The notes under the pieces: generated by a model
Seen by the model: the letters and a program-made list of their open reading frames with translations, nothing else
The model's database searches: none
Told to the model about the DNA's origin: nothing
DNA from: Hexactinellida sp. DTS-2022
Lineage: Eukaryota > Porifera > Hexactinellida
DNA length: 64,000 nt
Direction: 5' to 3'
Assembly: GCA_028753945.1 (NCBI GenBank)
Contig: JAPNXP010000002.1
Coordinates: forward strand, 7,626,001 to 7,690,000
Shown: piece by piece, positions 7,028-54,336 of the stretch
Layout of the letters: each line of letters starts with the position of its first letter
How positions within the stretch are numbered: position 1 is the stretch's first letter
Translations under genes and position numbers: made by a program

Positions 7028-7805
7028 TTAAAAGATGTCTGACTCGATTTTCTGCATACCTGCAACAAGCTGAACTTTGACCTCGTCATGTACATGGTTT
7101 GAGAATAGCGCAAGCGAAGCCAACTCTGGAGAAAGGTACCAATAGTGTCTGACCATCATCCGCAAATGGACACGACACAGTTCAACATCTTCATATTCCT
7201 GTAAACTATGAATCAACGCGATATCGGTGAATGCAGCATCAACAGCGAGGCTGCGAACTGTATGTGAATGTCCTATCAATACTCGTGTCTTCACTAGTAG
7301 TCTCGTCAGGCTCTGAATCAATTTCCTGGCTGGTGAACTGCGATTTTGGTGCAGAGAATGGTAACAGTTCATGATGTGCGCGTCTTTCGGCCGACAGCCC
7401 TTCCAGCGTTTCTATTGAGGAATATATCCCTCCGATACTCCCAGAACGATCTATGCGCTGCTGAGCCAGGAATTGCCTATCCTCTTCAAACTGAATTAAA
7501 TAATTTGCGTGAGTATGAGCTATGTCAAACAATTTATCAAGTTTGATTGAGCACTCTTCCTGGTTTTGAATGTCTGACAGATTGCTACGCTGCATGCTTT
7601 TCAAAAGCTGTTGATGTTGCTTCTGGAGTTTCTCTATTTTAACGATTATATCTCTCTTTGATTTCACTGGAATCCTGCACTGGTCCCATATCTTAATTAA
7701 TTCCTCATAGGTTGTATGGGCGCTTTCCCGTTTTGTGCACTTATTTTGGAGATGTTTGATAAAAAAAGCGCATAACATCACGTCTACTAGGCAACTTTGC
7801 ACCAA
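7028..7805 (-). pseudogene. Transposon-associated invertebrate protein remnant
   Basis: Two overlapping minus-strand frames (7239-7805 and 7028-7372) together read as one protein broken by a frameshift near 7240-7370. The first has ESAHTTYEELIKIWDQ, RIPVKSKRDIIVKIEKL, LFDIAHTHA and EEDRQFLAQQR; the second, near its end, YWYLSPELASLALF. I associate this motif series with a multi-copy family in arthropod and other invertebrate genomes, probably carried by a mobile element; I cannot name its biochemical function. Charged helices (about residues 60-110 of the first frame) look coiled-coil prone. No splice sites were needed to join the parts. It has no partner gene beside it. Family recognition is from memory of motif order, so moderately confident. 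Confidence 0.55.
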
Positions 7806-22404: not shown

Positions 22405-23600
22405 ATTTGGATTTCATTTGAATGACCGAATCGGATGTTACTATGAGCATGTTTATAGAGAGGTGTGGGCCGGAGAATTTCGCCTCGAGGGCCAGATCTG
22501 GCACGCCGGCCGGGAGTTTCCGAGCCTTGTTCAAAATTATGACAATCTGCAAAAGATGATTGAAAATGATAGCAATTTCAAATTCCTGAAAACAATACGC
22601 TCAACCACAGCATTCTGGCAACAAAAGCACAACGAATTGATGAGTATGATGCGACAACTAGGCTAACCTATATTTTCCTGACAATGTCTGCAGCTGAAAC
22701 TAAGTGGCCTGAATTGCTCAAAATATTAAAGGAGATCACGGAATTGTATACAATTATCATGTGATGACATAATAGATTTGCAGTGGAGTGAGAGAGCAGA
22801 CCTCATAAGCATAGGCGTCGTAACCCGGCCGGGTGCCCGGAAATGTCCGGGCGGCCCGGAAGGGTTGCTACTATGCTACTAATACTATACCCGGAGTTAC
22901 CCGGACATTACCCGGAATTTCCGGGCGGGCCGAAGGATTGACCTTTGCATTTACGACGCCTATGCTCATAAGGAGAAAACCTGTCACCAGTGCCAGGTAT
23001 TTCGATCATCGGTTAGGGAATTATTTATGGTTCTCAATGCGAAGGTTAGTACCCTTTGTGTATTAACTGACTTTTATTTGAGAATAGGATTCCAACATAG
23101 AGGGTCTCCTCATGTACATTCATTACTTTGGAACCAAAATGCACCAAAATATGGTAAAGCTAGTAATAGTGAAATTATAAATTTTATCAATGCTGCGATT
23201 ACATGCAATTTACCGAACGATGACAGTGTACTTAGTCAGAATGATATCCAATTACAGTTGCATAAACACACGCATACATGCTATAAGAAAAAGGAAATTA
23301 GACGTTGTCGATTTGGTATACCTTATCCTCCTAGGTTTCAACTCAAATTTTCGAGCCATTTAAATATAATGAAGAACTAACTACGAAGAAGGATAAATTG
23401 CTAATAGATTCCTATAAAAAGGCTAGAAAAAATATACAAGTTGATTGACGAAGTTGATAAGATAGATAGTTATTGATGGCTAAAGTCCTTCTGGAATTGG
23501 AAAGTCTAACTATCTTCCTTAGCTTGTATTCTCTTGACCCTCTTTATTATCTATCACTTAAAACAAAGTTTGACGGTCTAGCTCATATACATTCCAAGTT
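22405..23600 (+). pseudogene. Helitron Rep/helicase protein remnant (HUH domain)
   Basis: Plus-strand fragments give the Helitron-like N-terminal region and Rep nuclease. In order: FKFLKTIRSTTAFWQQKHNE and MMRQLG (22540-22660); after a frameshift, TMSAAETKWPELLKIL; WSERADLIR; then, beyond an inserted MITE, KPVTSARYFDHRLG; and finally GFQHRGSPHVHSLLW (about 23080), where HVH is the metal-binding HUH motif, followed by NAPKYG and a Cys/His cluster, HTHTCYKKKE..CRFGIPYPP. The Rep of Helitrons nicks and joins DNA for rolling-circle transposition. The helicase part is not recognisable, and only degenerate coding (KARKNI, LLELESLTIFLSLY) continues to about 23600. Several stops and frameshifts plus the MITE at 22810-22964 show it is dead. 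Confidence 0.85.
22810..22964. mobile_element. hAT MITE in Helitron Rep, perfect 8-bp TSD
   Basis: Ends CATAGGCGTCGTAA / TTTACGACGCCTATG, with CTCATAAG at 22802-22809 and 22965-22972. Interior very G+C-rich (CCCGGCCGGG, TGTCCGGGCGG). The same terminus style (CATAGGCG) occurs at 37769 and 63259. Confidence 0.9.
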
Positions 23601-30263: not shown

Positions 30264-31548
30264 CTTGTAGATAACAGCTCGTCTCTCGCCACTGGGGATG
30301 TGCCGTTGCAGGTCACGTTTCCATTATCTGGGCTCACCATGATAGGGATTGCGTTGCTTGAATAACCTCGAGCAGAGGTCCCCACAAAGTTCGATGTACC
30401 TTGTCTTTGAGCGCTTTCGAAAGAGTGTTGTGAGTTGTTATTACACTGTTAGGACTTCATCTGTTGTAGTTCCATAAGTCGGGATAGGAGATTTCAGCAT
30501 TGATACAACAGGTTCATAATGTAGGACGAAATTTTTGATGTAAAGATTGGCAGTCGGGCTGTTAGTAGATCTGAGCAAGCTCCAACGCACATGACGAATT
30601 ACAGACTCTGGCATTCTATAATCGTTGTTAGCAACGTAGATATCGGCATTCAGAATAGCAGAAGCAGCCATAATTTCAACATCACTTCCCCAAATGGATT
30701 CACGATAGATAGCATTTTCGTGTGTGAGGTAATGACACGGTGTTGTTTGCTTTGATTTAAAATACCATCCAAGTTTTGTTGTCCCCTCACTGGCTATAAA
30801 TCGGCATATAATGGAACGAAGCTGTAGGTGGCTGTTTTCACTCCCAGTAATTATTTTGGAGAGACATCTGAAGAGACAATTACCATCTCCTTTGATTTTC
30901 TCTGTCAGCTCTGGTTCGTATTTGCTTAGTGGCTGTCCAACGAGATCCGATGGTTGCTTGCTAACTGAATCAAATGTTATCCCCAAGAGAACACATTTAC
31001 TACGCTGCCAATTCTCATCTATAACAATAATTTTGGGTCATCCGGATAGGCATCTGTAATAACGGTTTGATCTTTTTCGTCGAACGTGTCCCATAGCATT
31101 GTATTGAGATACTCCATCGCCTAATAAAGGTATATAGGAATCATTAAGTATAATAAAATTACACAATTAATTAGAGCATCCATATAAGGTATCTCAATAA
31201 TATTGTGTAGAATACTTACCACGAAATACAGTATTTTGTGTGTATGTCTAGCACGCTCATTATCTGTAAAACTAGGATAAATATCTGGTGTCCATTCCAT
31301 TACAGTCTCAATTATGTCTCTCTTCTACAGATATATAAATACAATGGATATAAGTTGTGTTTAACTAATCTAAAATTTTCTAATTTATACTCGGTTAGAC
31401 TTACAATTTTATCTTCTTTTTCACCATTCAAAAACTGAAATAAATAGGTGTTGGGAGTATAGATATGTTGTTTGTTTAAGCTTCTGTACAATTTCTCATG
31501 TAAAGGAGTCGCGAAGGTTCCTTGGAGAATATTCTGTTTTAGAATTTC
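30264..31548 (-). pseudogene. Ginger1-like protein, OTU protease half (exons 7-9)
   Basis: Minus-strand exons with good borders: 31405-31548 (begins EILKQNILQG, ends EKEDKI, donor GTAAGT); 31220-31324 (KRDIIETVMEW ... KILYFV, donor GTAAGT); and from 31130 leftward. The last contains the OTU cysteine-protease core: GDGNCLFRCLS holds the catalytic Asp and Cys, WGSDVEIMAAS.. and ADIYVANN follow, and FVLHYEPV holds the catalytic His. OTU enzymes cleave ubiquitin; their role in Ginger transposition is unknown. One frameshift is needed near 31038 (joining DDPK to VIDENWQ) and another near 30440, after which coding runs on to a donor at 30264 (DNGNVTCNGT is shared with the relative at 50200). Most likely one polypeptide with the integrase; a separate gene is possible. 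Confidence 0.8.
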
Positions 31549-40300: not shown

Positions 40301-40429
40301 TTAATTTTCTTACTACTGCTGACTAGTGACGATCTATCACTTTCCGAAATCCTTCCTGAATCCTAATCCATTCCACATTAGCGTCATGTCCAAGAAACCA
40401 AGCCTGTCTGTCCTCGAGGAGCTAATGGC

Positions 40430-42442
40430 ATGGAGAAGGATTTCCCTTGGATTGAGACATCGGCGTCTGCAGGATATCAGAGGTATCGCTGCTCTGCGTG
40501 CGCGAAAGCCGGAAAGGGGGTTTGGGTTTCCTTCCGCAACTTCGACACCGACAAGACGCAGAAGTCCCAGTTCAAGACCCATGACTCCGAGACCAAGCAT
40601 GTCGCAGTAGTACAGCTCATCGCTACACGCGACAATAACGACACGTTCTGGAGAAAACAGGCTGATGAGGCAAAGGCGAAAGAAACCGCTAGGAAGTCTA
40701 AGTTCCTGCAGAATACGCGTGATCAGGTTCGGTCAGTCCTGTTCCTGGCTAAAAAAGAGATCTCGATCGAAAAGTACCGTTCCCTCCTCAAGTACGCTTC
40801 GGAGATTGATGGTAGCTCCGTGGAGGTGAGCTACCATTCTTCCACTAAGGCCGGATGGTCTTTCATTGACTCTGTGAGCGAAGTGATTCTCAAGAGGGAC
40901 AGCAAGATAGTTAGGGACGCTGACATGCACAGCATTATCCCCGACTCCACAAACGATGGGGACGACTGGGTAGCTGTACTCGCGAGGTGCGTGGACATCA
41001 AGGGAAATGTGCAGATTGTGCTGTGGGACCTTGTCTGCATGGCCTACGTCAAGCACGACTCGTTCGTTAACACACTACTTGGCCTCTATCAGCGCGATGA
41101 AGTGGACTTGCGAAACGTCGTCGGCTGGGCTTCTGATGGCTGCGCCACTATGAAGAAGGCTGCCAAGGAGTTCCAGGCACAAGCGAACGTGAACCTCATC
41201 TTCTGCTGCCTGGCCCACCGTATCGACCTCAGCCTTCCTGCCGATATGTGGAAGTCTTCGGACCACTGCAAAGATGTGGAAGAGGCCCTCAGGGCGGCAT
41301 ATACCATGTTCAATCGCAGTACCCAAAGGCGGAAGGAACTGCATACTTTGGTGAGAGAGTTTGGCAAGGTGAAAGTCCCTGGTGCACTAAATGACATCCG
41401 GTGGTTGTCCAAGCTCCAGTGTTTAGAGGTGTTCGCCTCGGAAGCCACTGCAGCGGCACTGAGAGAGTACATCAATGCCAAGCCTCCCGATCACCTGTCT
41501 GCAGGCGAGCAAGCAGTTATTTCAATTCTGGATGGCAGGATGGAAGAGCTGACAGACCTGCTGAAGATCCTGCGCCCTGTGGGTGCATTGACAGGAAGGC
41601 TGCAGAAGCGGATTCTCGACCTCCCTGGGGAGCTATCTCTTCTCAATCAAAGCAAAGAGGAACTGACAGCCATTGGTGGTCTAACAAAGGAAGTTGCCGG
41701 CCTGAGAGACGATCTCATCTACTACCTGAGCAAGAGGATCCCAGTGGAGGTGACTTCGTGGCTAGGATTCCTGAAGTTGGGAGCAGCCTACCTTGACGAT
41801 GTGGTGATCTTCAAATTCAGTCTGCTGCAAGCTCGGCTGGCCCACCTCGACTGGCAATGCACACCCCAAGAATTCCTGGAGGACTACAAGAAGGCTCGTC
41901 GAACCGTGCGAGAGCTGATAGAGAATGGCGCTAAAGCCAGGGACCTGAACATGGACGCTATTGCGGCTGACCTAGACATGGGAAGGGCCTGGGACATGTA
42001 TCGCGCCGTAACTAGGTGAATCTCTCCCACTTCCGCTGAAGCTGAGCGCACCTTCCCGTGCCTCTTCATGCTCCGCTCCAAGTTCCGCCGAAACCTCCAT
42101 CTTCACCTAGAGGCGTGTGTTCGCGTCTCCAAGGCGAAGAATTTGGGGGCCGGTATCGAAGGTGATGCATTCATTGACGAGGTGGTGGTTTCAAGGGACA
42201 GGGCCAATCCAAGAAGTAACAGGCCTATGGGTCTTGCCACTGGGCCCCACGCCAAGAAGACCAGACTGCTGGGTCCGGCTGCTCTCCAAGGGGAGGATGA
42301 GCAATACGATGACACCACGTCTGATGATGAGGTGGGTCCGGAACAGGTGATGCCAGTGCGCAGGGCAAGGTTAGAGGCGGCTGCTAGGATGGCGGTCTAT
42401 TTCGGGTTCGAGGCTGAGAAGGAGTCTGACTCAGAATTCTAG
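40430..42442 (+). CDS. hAT transposase, one in-frame TGA
   Basis: A 529-codon frame (ATG at 40430) ends at TGA 42017-42019 and continues in the same frame to a stop at 42440-42442, about 670 codons in all. In order: a CxxC..HxxxxxH zinc finger (YRCSACAKAG .. HDSETKHV, residues 20-60); GWASDGCATMKK with the second catalytic Asp (about residue 230); IFCCLAHRIDLSL, the C..H signature; RWLSKLQCL; and, just past the TGA, SPTSAEAERTFPCL, the hAT dimerisation/third-acid region. hAT transposases cut and paste with 8-bp duplications. G+C is far above the flanks (about half versus a third). The single lesion suggests a recently active copy, or readthrough. An ATG at 40387 lies in another frame. Confidence 0.9.
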
Positions 42443-51350: not shown

Positions 51351-51651
51351 GCTGTCTGTCAAAGTTTGATGCTTGTATTATTTTGAAATCTGCGCATGCG
51401 CAAATTTCAAATCTATATTTGTAACAAATGTGCCCACACAAGTAGAATATATTCACATATATATACCTCATATCTCTTCATTTTAATGTTTCCAAACTTA
51501 TTCTTTCCAAACTCTTACAAATTAGATTCTTTCTCTTGACTTTTCGTCTTTCCTTCTCATATATTATTTTTGTTACATTTTATATCTTTTTTTCATTTTT
51601 GTTTCTTATTGTTCTAATTGTTTACTTATTCTAATATAAATTATTTCTCAA

Positions 51652-54336
51652 ATGATTTCCCTTGAGGCCTGGAGAAGTCGAATTGGATTGTGGGCCGGAA
51701 GAGTGAAGATGTATTCTAATGATAGTGTCCCGAAGCTAAACCTTAGTTTACAGCAGAGCTTCGATATTTTGTGGGGCATATCCACACTAATTGTTGCAGC
51801 TGTTATTTCAGTATTATTGTTTGTTGGCGGTGTGGAGTTGAACCCGGGACCTCCTCGGAAGGATCTCAACTCTAGTTCAAGTTGTGAGGAAGAGTTTGAA
51901 GTACCTGAAAGTTTTGATTTTAGTGAAACTTCGAAAGGTAATTATGTGTTTACCGCTCCTATTACTCCCATACTAAATCTGAATAAACGTAGATTACTTG
52001 TTGGATCTAAAAGGCGTCCAAATAAATTCGGTGGACACAAAAATATCGATATGGTGGCCCTAGCTCCAGAGAGCTATTCCGTTTCGATAACTAGCAGCCA
52101 AACAAGTGTAACGGACTCTCTTGATGTTCTTGAGCTATCTGCTAAGGTCCCCAGAATTTCTGGGGAGACCCAAAACGCTACCATTCCATTTTTAGATAGC
52201 CAAGAAAATCAAGAATCTCCGTTACCTGAAAGTCAGCCAAAATTTACAACAGCCAAATCAAAAATCTCCAGAGTAGTCCTTGATGATGTTCCGTTTGAGA
52301 AAATGGAGGTTTTTCTTGTCGGAAAATCTAGGGGTGATAAAGTAGATTTATGTAGAGTAGAAGGGAATGCACTTTTGAATGTAGGAATTTTAGAGGGAGC
52401 ACTAGCGTAAGTTTCAGTGTGTAAGTTCTGTAGTTAAGTTCGGCTAACTTTCTATCGAACGTCTTATAATAATGGATTGGCCTTGCATTATTATATTGTC
52501 TGTGATCATTGTTTTGTAGCCACCCCATTCTATACTCTCCCTCAGACTAGTACCCCCCATTCCGACACAGACAATAAAATACAGTTTGGCCATAATATCT
52601 TGCAAATTTTGGGTGGTAGGATAGTGGGCATTGGTAAATCGGGGCTCGATTTGAAAAATACTTTCATTGGTATCCCGACAACTTTATCTAATAGGGCATT
52701 TTATAAAACTCAGACATTTTAATCGAAAGTTTCCACGGATATAGCACATGCAAGCTGTATGCGGGCAGCAGAAATACAACACTGGTGATTCTGAATTTTT
52801 AGAGGTTACGGTTTATTAAAGGGTGGTAAATCGGGAGGGGGATTTTCGAGATACTGTGTTGCTTGTGCTATCTCCGTGGAATCTGGGAAAGTCCTAAATT
52901 ATGAAATAGCATGTAATAGTTGTAAATTATGTATTGAGAAGCAACAAGCCCTTAGGGAGAAACGAATCGATTTGGCAGAATACAAGTTATGGATTGAAAT
53001 GCATGAATCTAATTGCCAGGCTAGAGAATATGGTAAATTTAGTTCTGTTGCGCTGGAATAATAATTAGCACCTGTAATTTTTCGTAGCTCAATCGAACAG
53101 AAATTGATTTACTCCACAGTTATAGCTGATGGTGATGATAAAAGTATTAATATATTAACTGAAAATAACATTTATGGGGAATTTAATATAACAATAAGAC
53201 GGGAGGAATGTTTGAGCCATGTTCAGAAGCGTATACGTGTTCATTTAGTTGAAAAACAAAAAGAGTTTATTGCTTCTCAGAAAACATTGTTGCAACATGA
53301 ATTGAGACTATGTAAAACTGATGCACTGAGAAAATCTATTAGGGAGGAGTATCGGCCATCTACGCTTAGGGATTTGAAAAAGGGGAGAGATAATTGGGGT
53401 GATAGTGAAGATATATTAGATGTATCTAACGAAATAAACCTTCTACTAGATAATATGATTGATAAAATAACATCTTTATATGGTTTTGTTGTGAAAAGTA
53501 GAATAGGCGGAGATCTAGTTGTATTTCGTGATGCATTGTTTGGAATTGTTTATCATTTAGCAGCTAATGATGCAAATTGTCAGGAGATGCATAAATATTG
53601 TGAGAAGGGTGCTGATTCATTTTTCATGTATCAAAAAGCAGTAGCTGCTGGAGATACTATTCCAAAACATCCCAGGTGCATCAGTTTAGCCTGTAGAGAT
53701 CGTATTTTAGAAATTTTAGACCATATCTTTCTTGCGCTGTCATTTTTGGAAAAGGTTCAGGGTGGTAACACCTCAAATCTGAATGAGAACCTTCATGGGA
53801 TAATTTGGAATTGTATAAGTAAAAGGAAGCAGTTAGATTTGAGTTTGATGAATTTAGGATGTAGTTTAGGTATAATTCGTTTCAACGAAGGGGTAGCTGG
53901 CCTTCAAAAGATTATTGTTTTTTTAGGATTAGAATCCTATATATCAATAGATACATTAGTAAATGAATTTGATAATGCGAGATTACTAACTAGTATAAAA
54001 TGTGTTGAAAATACTAAGCGTAGATGGTCCCTAAAACAGGCAAAGCGTTCGCGAAAGCGTGGAGCTACTTATAAGAGCGGGGCCTATTCCCAAGCAACAA
54101 GGGTGCCACCGAATATGGACTTGAATTGTAAAATATGCGGAGGGAGTGAAGATAGTGGGATATTAAACAAGGCGGGTAAGGGTAATAGTAAAGATATTAG
54201 TGTTGAAGTTGACTGGTTGTGTTGTGATATTTGTAATTGTTGGCACCATGAACAATGTTTGAGAAGTTTTAATATGCTAATTGTTTCTGTTAGAAAAGAA
54301 GATTTGCGGATATGCCCCGCATGTAATTGTTCTTAG
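51652..54336 (+). pseudogene. Mutator-like transposase with N-terminal 2A-like motif and PHD finger
   Basis: A single reading frame from ATG 51652 to TAG 54336 (about 895 codons) broken by stops near 52408, 52429, 52720, 52790-52796 and 53059-53064 but, by my reading, without a needed frameshift. Order: ISLEAWRSRIG; a hydrophobic segment (ILWGISTLIVAAVISVLLFV) ending in GGVELNPGPP; an acidic/Ser linker; VEGNALLNVGILEGAL and CKFC/CDHC; GIGKSGLDLK; VESGKVLNYEI; IADGDDKS; HVQKRI; NENLHGIIWN; IRFNEGVAG; then a PHD finger (CKIC, CCDIC, WHHEQC, CPAC). The middle motif series matches the animal Mutator-like transposase family. The 2A motif would make ribosomes skip between Gly and Pro, releasing a short membrane peptide. 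Stops show decay. Other copies: 42690-43510, 45010-45257. Confidence 0.8.

Follow-up and report, generated by a model that had tools for sequence, protein, structure and literature searches.

A 2A-like leader on a Mutator-like transposase of a hexactinellid sponge, probably a portable module also found on Helentrons and OTU-bearing elements

In the genome of Hexactinellida sp. DTS-2022, the transposase of one family of Mutator-like transposons appears to be translated with a 66-residue leader in front of it, and this leader appears to end in a working 2A (StopGo) ribosome-skipping motif. The genome also has Helentron-type Helitrons and an OTU-protease element that begin with a homologous leader, MISxExWRxRIG...GG[VI]ExNPGP. 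Because unrelated elements begin with leaders that are homologous and carry the same 2A, the leader is best read as a portable module that has moved between element classes. Judged from sequence, we put the probability of this reading, working 2A and movement together, at about 0.84.

Results

The window is the stretch of 64,000 nucleotides that was analysed (C11:7626001-7690000), and the genome searched comprises 112.4 Mb on 18 contigs. On the forward strand of the window an ATG at 51652 opens a frame of 252 codons (51652-52407) that is closed by a TAA at 52408-52410, and the translation of 51652-52410 runs MISLEAWRSRIGLWAGRV...DILWGISTLIVAAVISVLLFVGGVELNPGPPRKD. The first 20 residues (MISLEAWRSRIGLWAGRVKM, 51652..51711) form a conserved module, MIS(L/I)ExWRxRIGxWxGR. 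They are followed by a variable and poorly conserved polar spacer (residues 21-37, 51712..51762) and by a hydrophobic segment (residues 38-59, 51763..51828), with a Kyte-Doolittle 19-mer maximum of 2.59 at residues 43-61. This segment abuts the 2A core GVELNPGP (residues 60-67, 51829..51852). The bond predicted to be skipped, Gly66-Pro67, lies between codons 51847-51849 and 51850-51852, and the leader ends GVELNPG/P. A Ser/Glu-rich linker and the start of the transposase coding sequence occupy 51853..52407, open up to the TAA. The remaining Mutator-like transposase continues in the same frame at 52411..54333, as seen by blastn to the copies in L009-L020, and its longest open piece (53065-54333) matches PF20700 at E 1.2e-6. 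Further stops lie in this frame at 52435, 52720, 52786, 52792, 53059 and 53062. With seven in-frame stops ahead of the final stop at 54334, this copy is unable to make a leader-transposase fusion. The window copy is dead.

The sequence-only reading of the window had proposed a 2A-like motif that is N-terminal to and in frame with a Mutator-like transposase, with a hydrophobic segment running straight into it, and both proposals are borne out. It had also flagged the Gly that replaces the consensus Asp. This is no obstacle, since (D/G/C/N)(V/I)ExNPGP is described as the expanded functional 2A core and Gly for Asp as a common active variant (PMC12846837).

Elsewhere in the window there is an OTU-domain ORF (30441-31037, reverse strand) and a fragment of Helitron_like_N under Pfam's cut-off (22883-23377, forward strand). 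A 545-residue open frame at 40382-42016 (forward strand) has no Pfam match at E 0.01.

The N-terminal ORF of the window copy has 115 tblastn matches in the genome, and twelve further places (L009-L020) hold whole or partial copies of the family. In one of these, L018, leader, 2A and PF20700 (E 1.5e-36) all lie in a single ORF, 912 codons long (910 counted from the leader Met), which also has a C-terminal PHD match below Pfam's cut-off. The single ORF of L014 has 879 codons (834 from the Met) and the same parts (PF20700 E 1.1e-37); it stops short of the C-terminal part present in L018. Coding sequence is in frame on both sides of the 2A in L018 and L014, but not in the decayed window copy. The database relatives P0016 (911 aa) and P0017 (900 aa) are single ORFs with the same plan of leader, 2A and transposase. 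In P0019 (883 aa, approximately 50% identical overall) the leader is divergent, with 14/59 residues identical, yet it carries GGIELNPGPP. The predicted proteins of P0018, P0020 and P0021 (50-80% identical, 551-568 aa) begin downstream of the 2A. More distant proteins (P0022-P0033, 29-37% identical) contain no NPGP, and several of these are short and may be truncated. A protein search with an alignment as query found no further relatives. The leader-2A is absent from all eight of the other Mutator-domain loci sampled in the genome that have readable N-termini; a ninth has no ORF >150 aa and no motif.

In the eight copies checked, the next Met beyond the 2A falls only at residues 102-368, and the leader Met is therefore the likely start. 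In L018 this next Met is residue 225, which is still ahead of the Mutator domain (approximately residue 269), and P0019 has a Met three residues past the 2A. No convincing pair of terminal inverted repeats was found near the ORF in eight copies. An inverted pair of 21 nt, 19 of them matching, flanks the ORF of L018 (L018:2202-2222 and 7122-7142, 4.9 kb apart) and is a candidate for the element ends. It was not found as a pair in the 12 other copies. Mutator-like elements create target-site duplications of 8-11 bp, and none was seen by eye beside the candidate pair.

In an alignment of L018, P0016, P0017, P0019 and L014 the core (residues 60-69) is invariant in 8/10 columns, compared with 8/59 in the leader, 41/191 in the linker and 304/649 in the rest. 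It is the best-conserved 10-column window within residues 1-260. The sequence-only reading had named conservation of the core against the linker as a check on its claim, and the core is clearly the better kept. A wider alignment takes in 21 copies (the window, L009-L018 and 10 proteins; P0002, P0004, P0007, P0010, P0011, P0013, P0015, L019 and L020 are left out). Here E62, P65 and G66 are invariant and P67 is present in 20/21; at position 63 (x) L, E, V and I all occur and none is in the majority. Residue 64 (2A position 16) is N in 16 copies and H in the other five. The full core is found in 15 copies, H at position 16 in five, and L015 ends NPGL. Upstream of the core the context is LLFVGG or LLIVGG, L-rich and ending GG. 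As aligned, the conservation pattern is that of the 2A rules, with x free and E/P/G/P nearly fixed. The five HPGP copies (L009-L013) are one Mutator subfamily with a 20-base core that is identical in 5/5, and they may therefore reflect one event. Among the sequences outside this alignment, the core is changed in P0004 (NPGT) and P0007 (R for E), and P0011 and P0013 have no leader. Other core losses in the family are HPGH (L036) and HPGL (L037); leaders of other elements show NPGF (L044), NPGL (L048) and NSGP (L051).

Estimates of dN/dS come from nine copies, after L012 (a near copy of L011) and L017 were additionally dropped, and pool all copy pairs, which are not independent. The ratio is 0.20 for residues 1-20, 0.63 for the spacer (21-37), 0.23 for the hydrophobic segment (38-59), 0.09 for residues 68-75 and 0.58 for the linker (78-130). 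For the core it is 0.61 in full and 0.14 without x and N, a comparison of little power because silent sites are conserved there too (dS 0.175). Retention of (N/H)PGP was counted in the 92/115 leader matches that cover residues 60-67, the query itself containing the motif. It is kept in 64/72 open leaders versus 5/20 leaders with stops; the Fisher p of 6.9e-8 overstates independence, since the copies share ancestry and two decayed places entered the count twice.

An invariant MIS.E..R..I, followed by L..GG.E.NPGP, is common to thirteen leaders taken from the Mutator family, from two groups of Helentrons and from the OTU element. These leaders were picked for having a 2A, and therefore the upstream columns alone are informative. 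Mean leader identity between groups is 0.38-0.48, and leader-only matches have tblastn E-values as low as 8.7e-12. To our knowledge the MIS.E..R..I start is part of no known 2A motif. For OTU-type leaders the match to the window protein begins at residue 1 or 2 and ends at residues 67-75, mostly at 68, which adjoins the skip site. This sharp boundary is true of one class only, as Helentron leaders match on to approximately residues 77-111. The 2A leaders of L029-L034 and L020 lack the MISxExWR start.

The setting of the leader differs among the classes. It lies within one uninterrupted transposase ORF in the Mutator family and within an ORF1 of 372-434 aa in Helentron group a. The leader ORF of Helentron group b (L021, L022, L024) extends 22-24 residues past NPGP, and that of L028 extends 34 residues past it; these short ORFs resemble what might be a first exon. 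In one Helentron group (HELa) the 2A is kept although the segment before it is much less hydrophobic (maximum 1.13-1.17). The Helentron assignment is clearest in L026, where Rep, PIF1 helicase and a C-terminal endonuclease are over Pfam's cut-off; L022 has Rep, PIF1 helicase and an endonuclease just below it. Helentron-type elements are seen at L022, L023, L025, L026 and L027, where the 2A leader is found in the first ORF together with repeats of the type RLKDPEKRAEHN; in L022 the 2A leader is in a separate short ORF. The OTU element (L028:1744-5523, reverse strand) has a 1260-aa OTU-bearing ORF behind its 2A leader, with no convincing Pfam match besides OTU, and is found on C1, C9, C10 and C18. 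It has probably moved recently, since four full-length places, L028 included, are 100% identical after rounding. Three leader copies with equal match scores stand approximately 9 kb apart at C11:9014644, 9023173 and 9032769, and in the last of these (L051) the core is mutated to VGVELNSGP.

A degenerate nucleotide pattern for V/I-E-x-N-P-G-P occurs at 137 sites in the 112.4 Mb, versus three for the reversed pattern. Split by codon, the counts are 95 versus 0 (ATH) and 41 versus 3 (GTN). Neighbouring domains were compared for 136/137 sites (one ATG-type site was left out), with 150/151 Helitron and 114/116 Mutator matches. At least 54/136 sites are followed by a domain within 8 kb on the same strand (Helitron_like_N at no fewer than 26, OTU at no fewer than 25, Mutator at no fewer than three), against 3/136 in the upstream control among the matches listed. 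Conversely, a 2A site lies within 6 kb upstream of 25/150 Helitron, 24/150 OTU, 3/114 Mutator and 1/150 RVT_1 matches listed, and by these counts most elements of the Helitron, OTU and Mutator classes here carry no visible 2A. Reverse transcriptase was rejected as the main carrier, as none of the best 150 of 608 RVT_1 candidates follows any of the 136 sites within 5 kb. One locus, L070, by eye resembles a non-LTR fragment.

Among the matches listed, 82/136 sites have no domain within 8 kb downstream, and eight such loci were fetched. At L064 and L065 the 2A motifs precede integrase (rve, H2C2) pieces, and one of the two also has a SCAND3-type zinc finger; we take these to be possibly Ginger-like transposons. 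The integrase-bearing elements carry other 2A leaders. L067 shows a weak OTU match, L068 precedes a copy of the OTU element, and L066 and L071 show no clear element type. No hydrophobic segment precedes the motif of L069, which may be a chance occurrence.

Discussion

Skipping, the separate products and their localisation are predicted here from sequence. On most passes the ribosome would fail to join Gly66 to Pro67 and the leader would be released. Translation would then continue to give a transposase that starts with Pro (PPRKDLSSSSE...). The remaining passes would yield a leader-transposase fusion, which could be drawn to membranes. The released leader would have its hydrophobic part at the C-terminus; when skipping occurs this segment would not yet have left the exit tunnel, and any targeting of the leader would therefore come after its release. 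Leaderless Mutator proteins start at a Met shortly before a Ser-rich stretch that resembles the stretch after the 2A (e.g. P0022, MARRYVSSSSDDE). Skipping would therefore restore an N-terminus like the ancestral one, although a likeness between serine-rich sequences is only suggestive. The module itself may have been moved by recombination or capture.

The sequence-only reading had further suggested that the leader serves as a membrane peptide or sends some of the product to membranes. The hydrophobic segment of the window leader fits this role, but the role is weakened by the HELa leaders, which keep the 2A at a low hydrophobicity. Because of that group, the function that the leaders have in common appears to be skipping and not membrane insertion.

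Several known systems are close parallels. The 2A/StopGo sites of picornaviruses and other RNA viruses share the core G(V/I)ExNPGP and H at position 16, and their L-rich upstream sequence ending in GG resembles the one here, but they sit inside a polyprotein, whereas here the 2A is at the N-terminus of a DNA transposase (PMC12846837). Natural viral HPGP sites are reported to be >95% active, and F2A with N16H in a foreign context to be only modestly active (PMC12846837). The upstream GG context resembles motif 5 of the same source, which prefers Pro at x and is outside the four motifs assayed there (PMC12846837); x is not Pro in our copies. The 2A-like signal sequences described for sea urchin NLR proteins likewise have an N-terminal hydrophobic stretch ending in the 2A, with possible dual targeting (PMC4981915). 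That signal is 26 aa long and heads an immune receptor, whereas the sponge leader is 66 aa long, begins MISxExWR and heads a transposase (PMC4981915). Compared with an NLR-type N-terminal signal, the hydrophobic segment here starts approximately 37 residues into the leader. Non-LTR retrotransposons with a 2A include L1Tc (Heras 2006) and APE-type elements (Odon 2013), as cited in PMC11512398. These carriers copy through RNA, in contrast to the classified carriers in this genome, which have Mutator, Helitron or OTU domains. Helentrons are described as Helitrons with an endonuclease (PMC4067079); L026 and L022 have the same domain set and differ by the 2A leader that heads ORF1. PF20700 Mutator-like elements with a PHD-like C-terminus have the same transposase domain as the family described here, and the other loci sampled lack the leader-2A.

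Three other explanations must be weighed. A leader that serves as signal anchor or membrane peptide, with no skipping and with NPGP kept for some other role, e.g. as a turn or a protease site, is quite unlikely. The position of the hydrophobic segment right before the motif, and the purifying selection on it, would suit such a peptide. However, the fixed and free positions match those of a 2A, down to the H variant at position 16; the HELa leaders retain the 2A where hydrophobicity is low; and P0019 retains the core despite its divergent leader. Still less credible is that the motif, having worked in the past, is a relic in a decaying leader and that the transposase comes from a spliced RNA or from translation that begins further downstream. 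The stops of the window copy, HPGP and the other core variants, the downstream Met of L018, the Met just past the 2A in P0019, and the leaderless predictions P0018, P0020 and P0021 are all compatible with decay. But the conserved module and the hydrophobic segment have a lower dN/dS than the linker, and the motif is kept far more often in open than in broken leaders.

The third explanation, that the Mutator, Helentron and OTU leaders are convergent and represent no shared cassette, is compatible with working 2As and is somewhat less improbable than the other two, although still unlikely. Many unrelated 2As have a hydrophobic region before NPGP, and leaders such as those of L020 and L029-L034 lack the common start. 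Against convergence, MIS.E..R..I lies far from the 2A and is invariant in 13/13 leaders of three classes, and leader-only matches reach low E-values. The reading that we prefer is a leader with a working 2A, moved between classes. An extension of it has about an even chance of being correct: a single leader-2A cassette would have been traded among Mutator-like, Helentron and OTU-bearing class II elements, its start module giving a membrane microprotein and a free transposase. Under this extension the leader, once released, would insert in the manner of a tail-anchored protein, as its hydrophobic part is at the very end, and might have a function of its own.

Conclusions

In the accounts of PMC12846837 and PMC11512398, 2A signals are mostly viral, with a few in non-LTR retrotransposons and NLR genes. 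The literature searched yielded no report of a 2A in a Helitron or a Mutator-like element. The statement of the sequence-only reading that it knew of none in a Mutator-like element is thus uncontradicted, and the novelty is provisional. In this sponge genome a number of DNA transposases and rolling-circle elements have a 2A at their head, with one leader across unrelated enzymes. This makes testable the exchange of translation-control modules between mobile elements. It also makes testable that transposition may be tuned by the efficiency of skipping, and that the leader peptide may work by itself.
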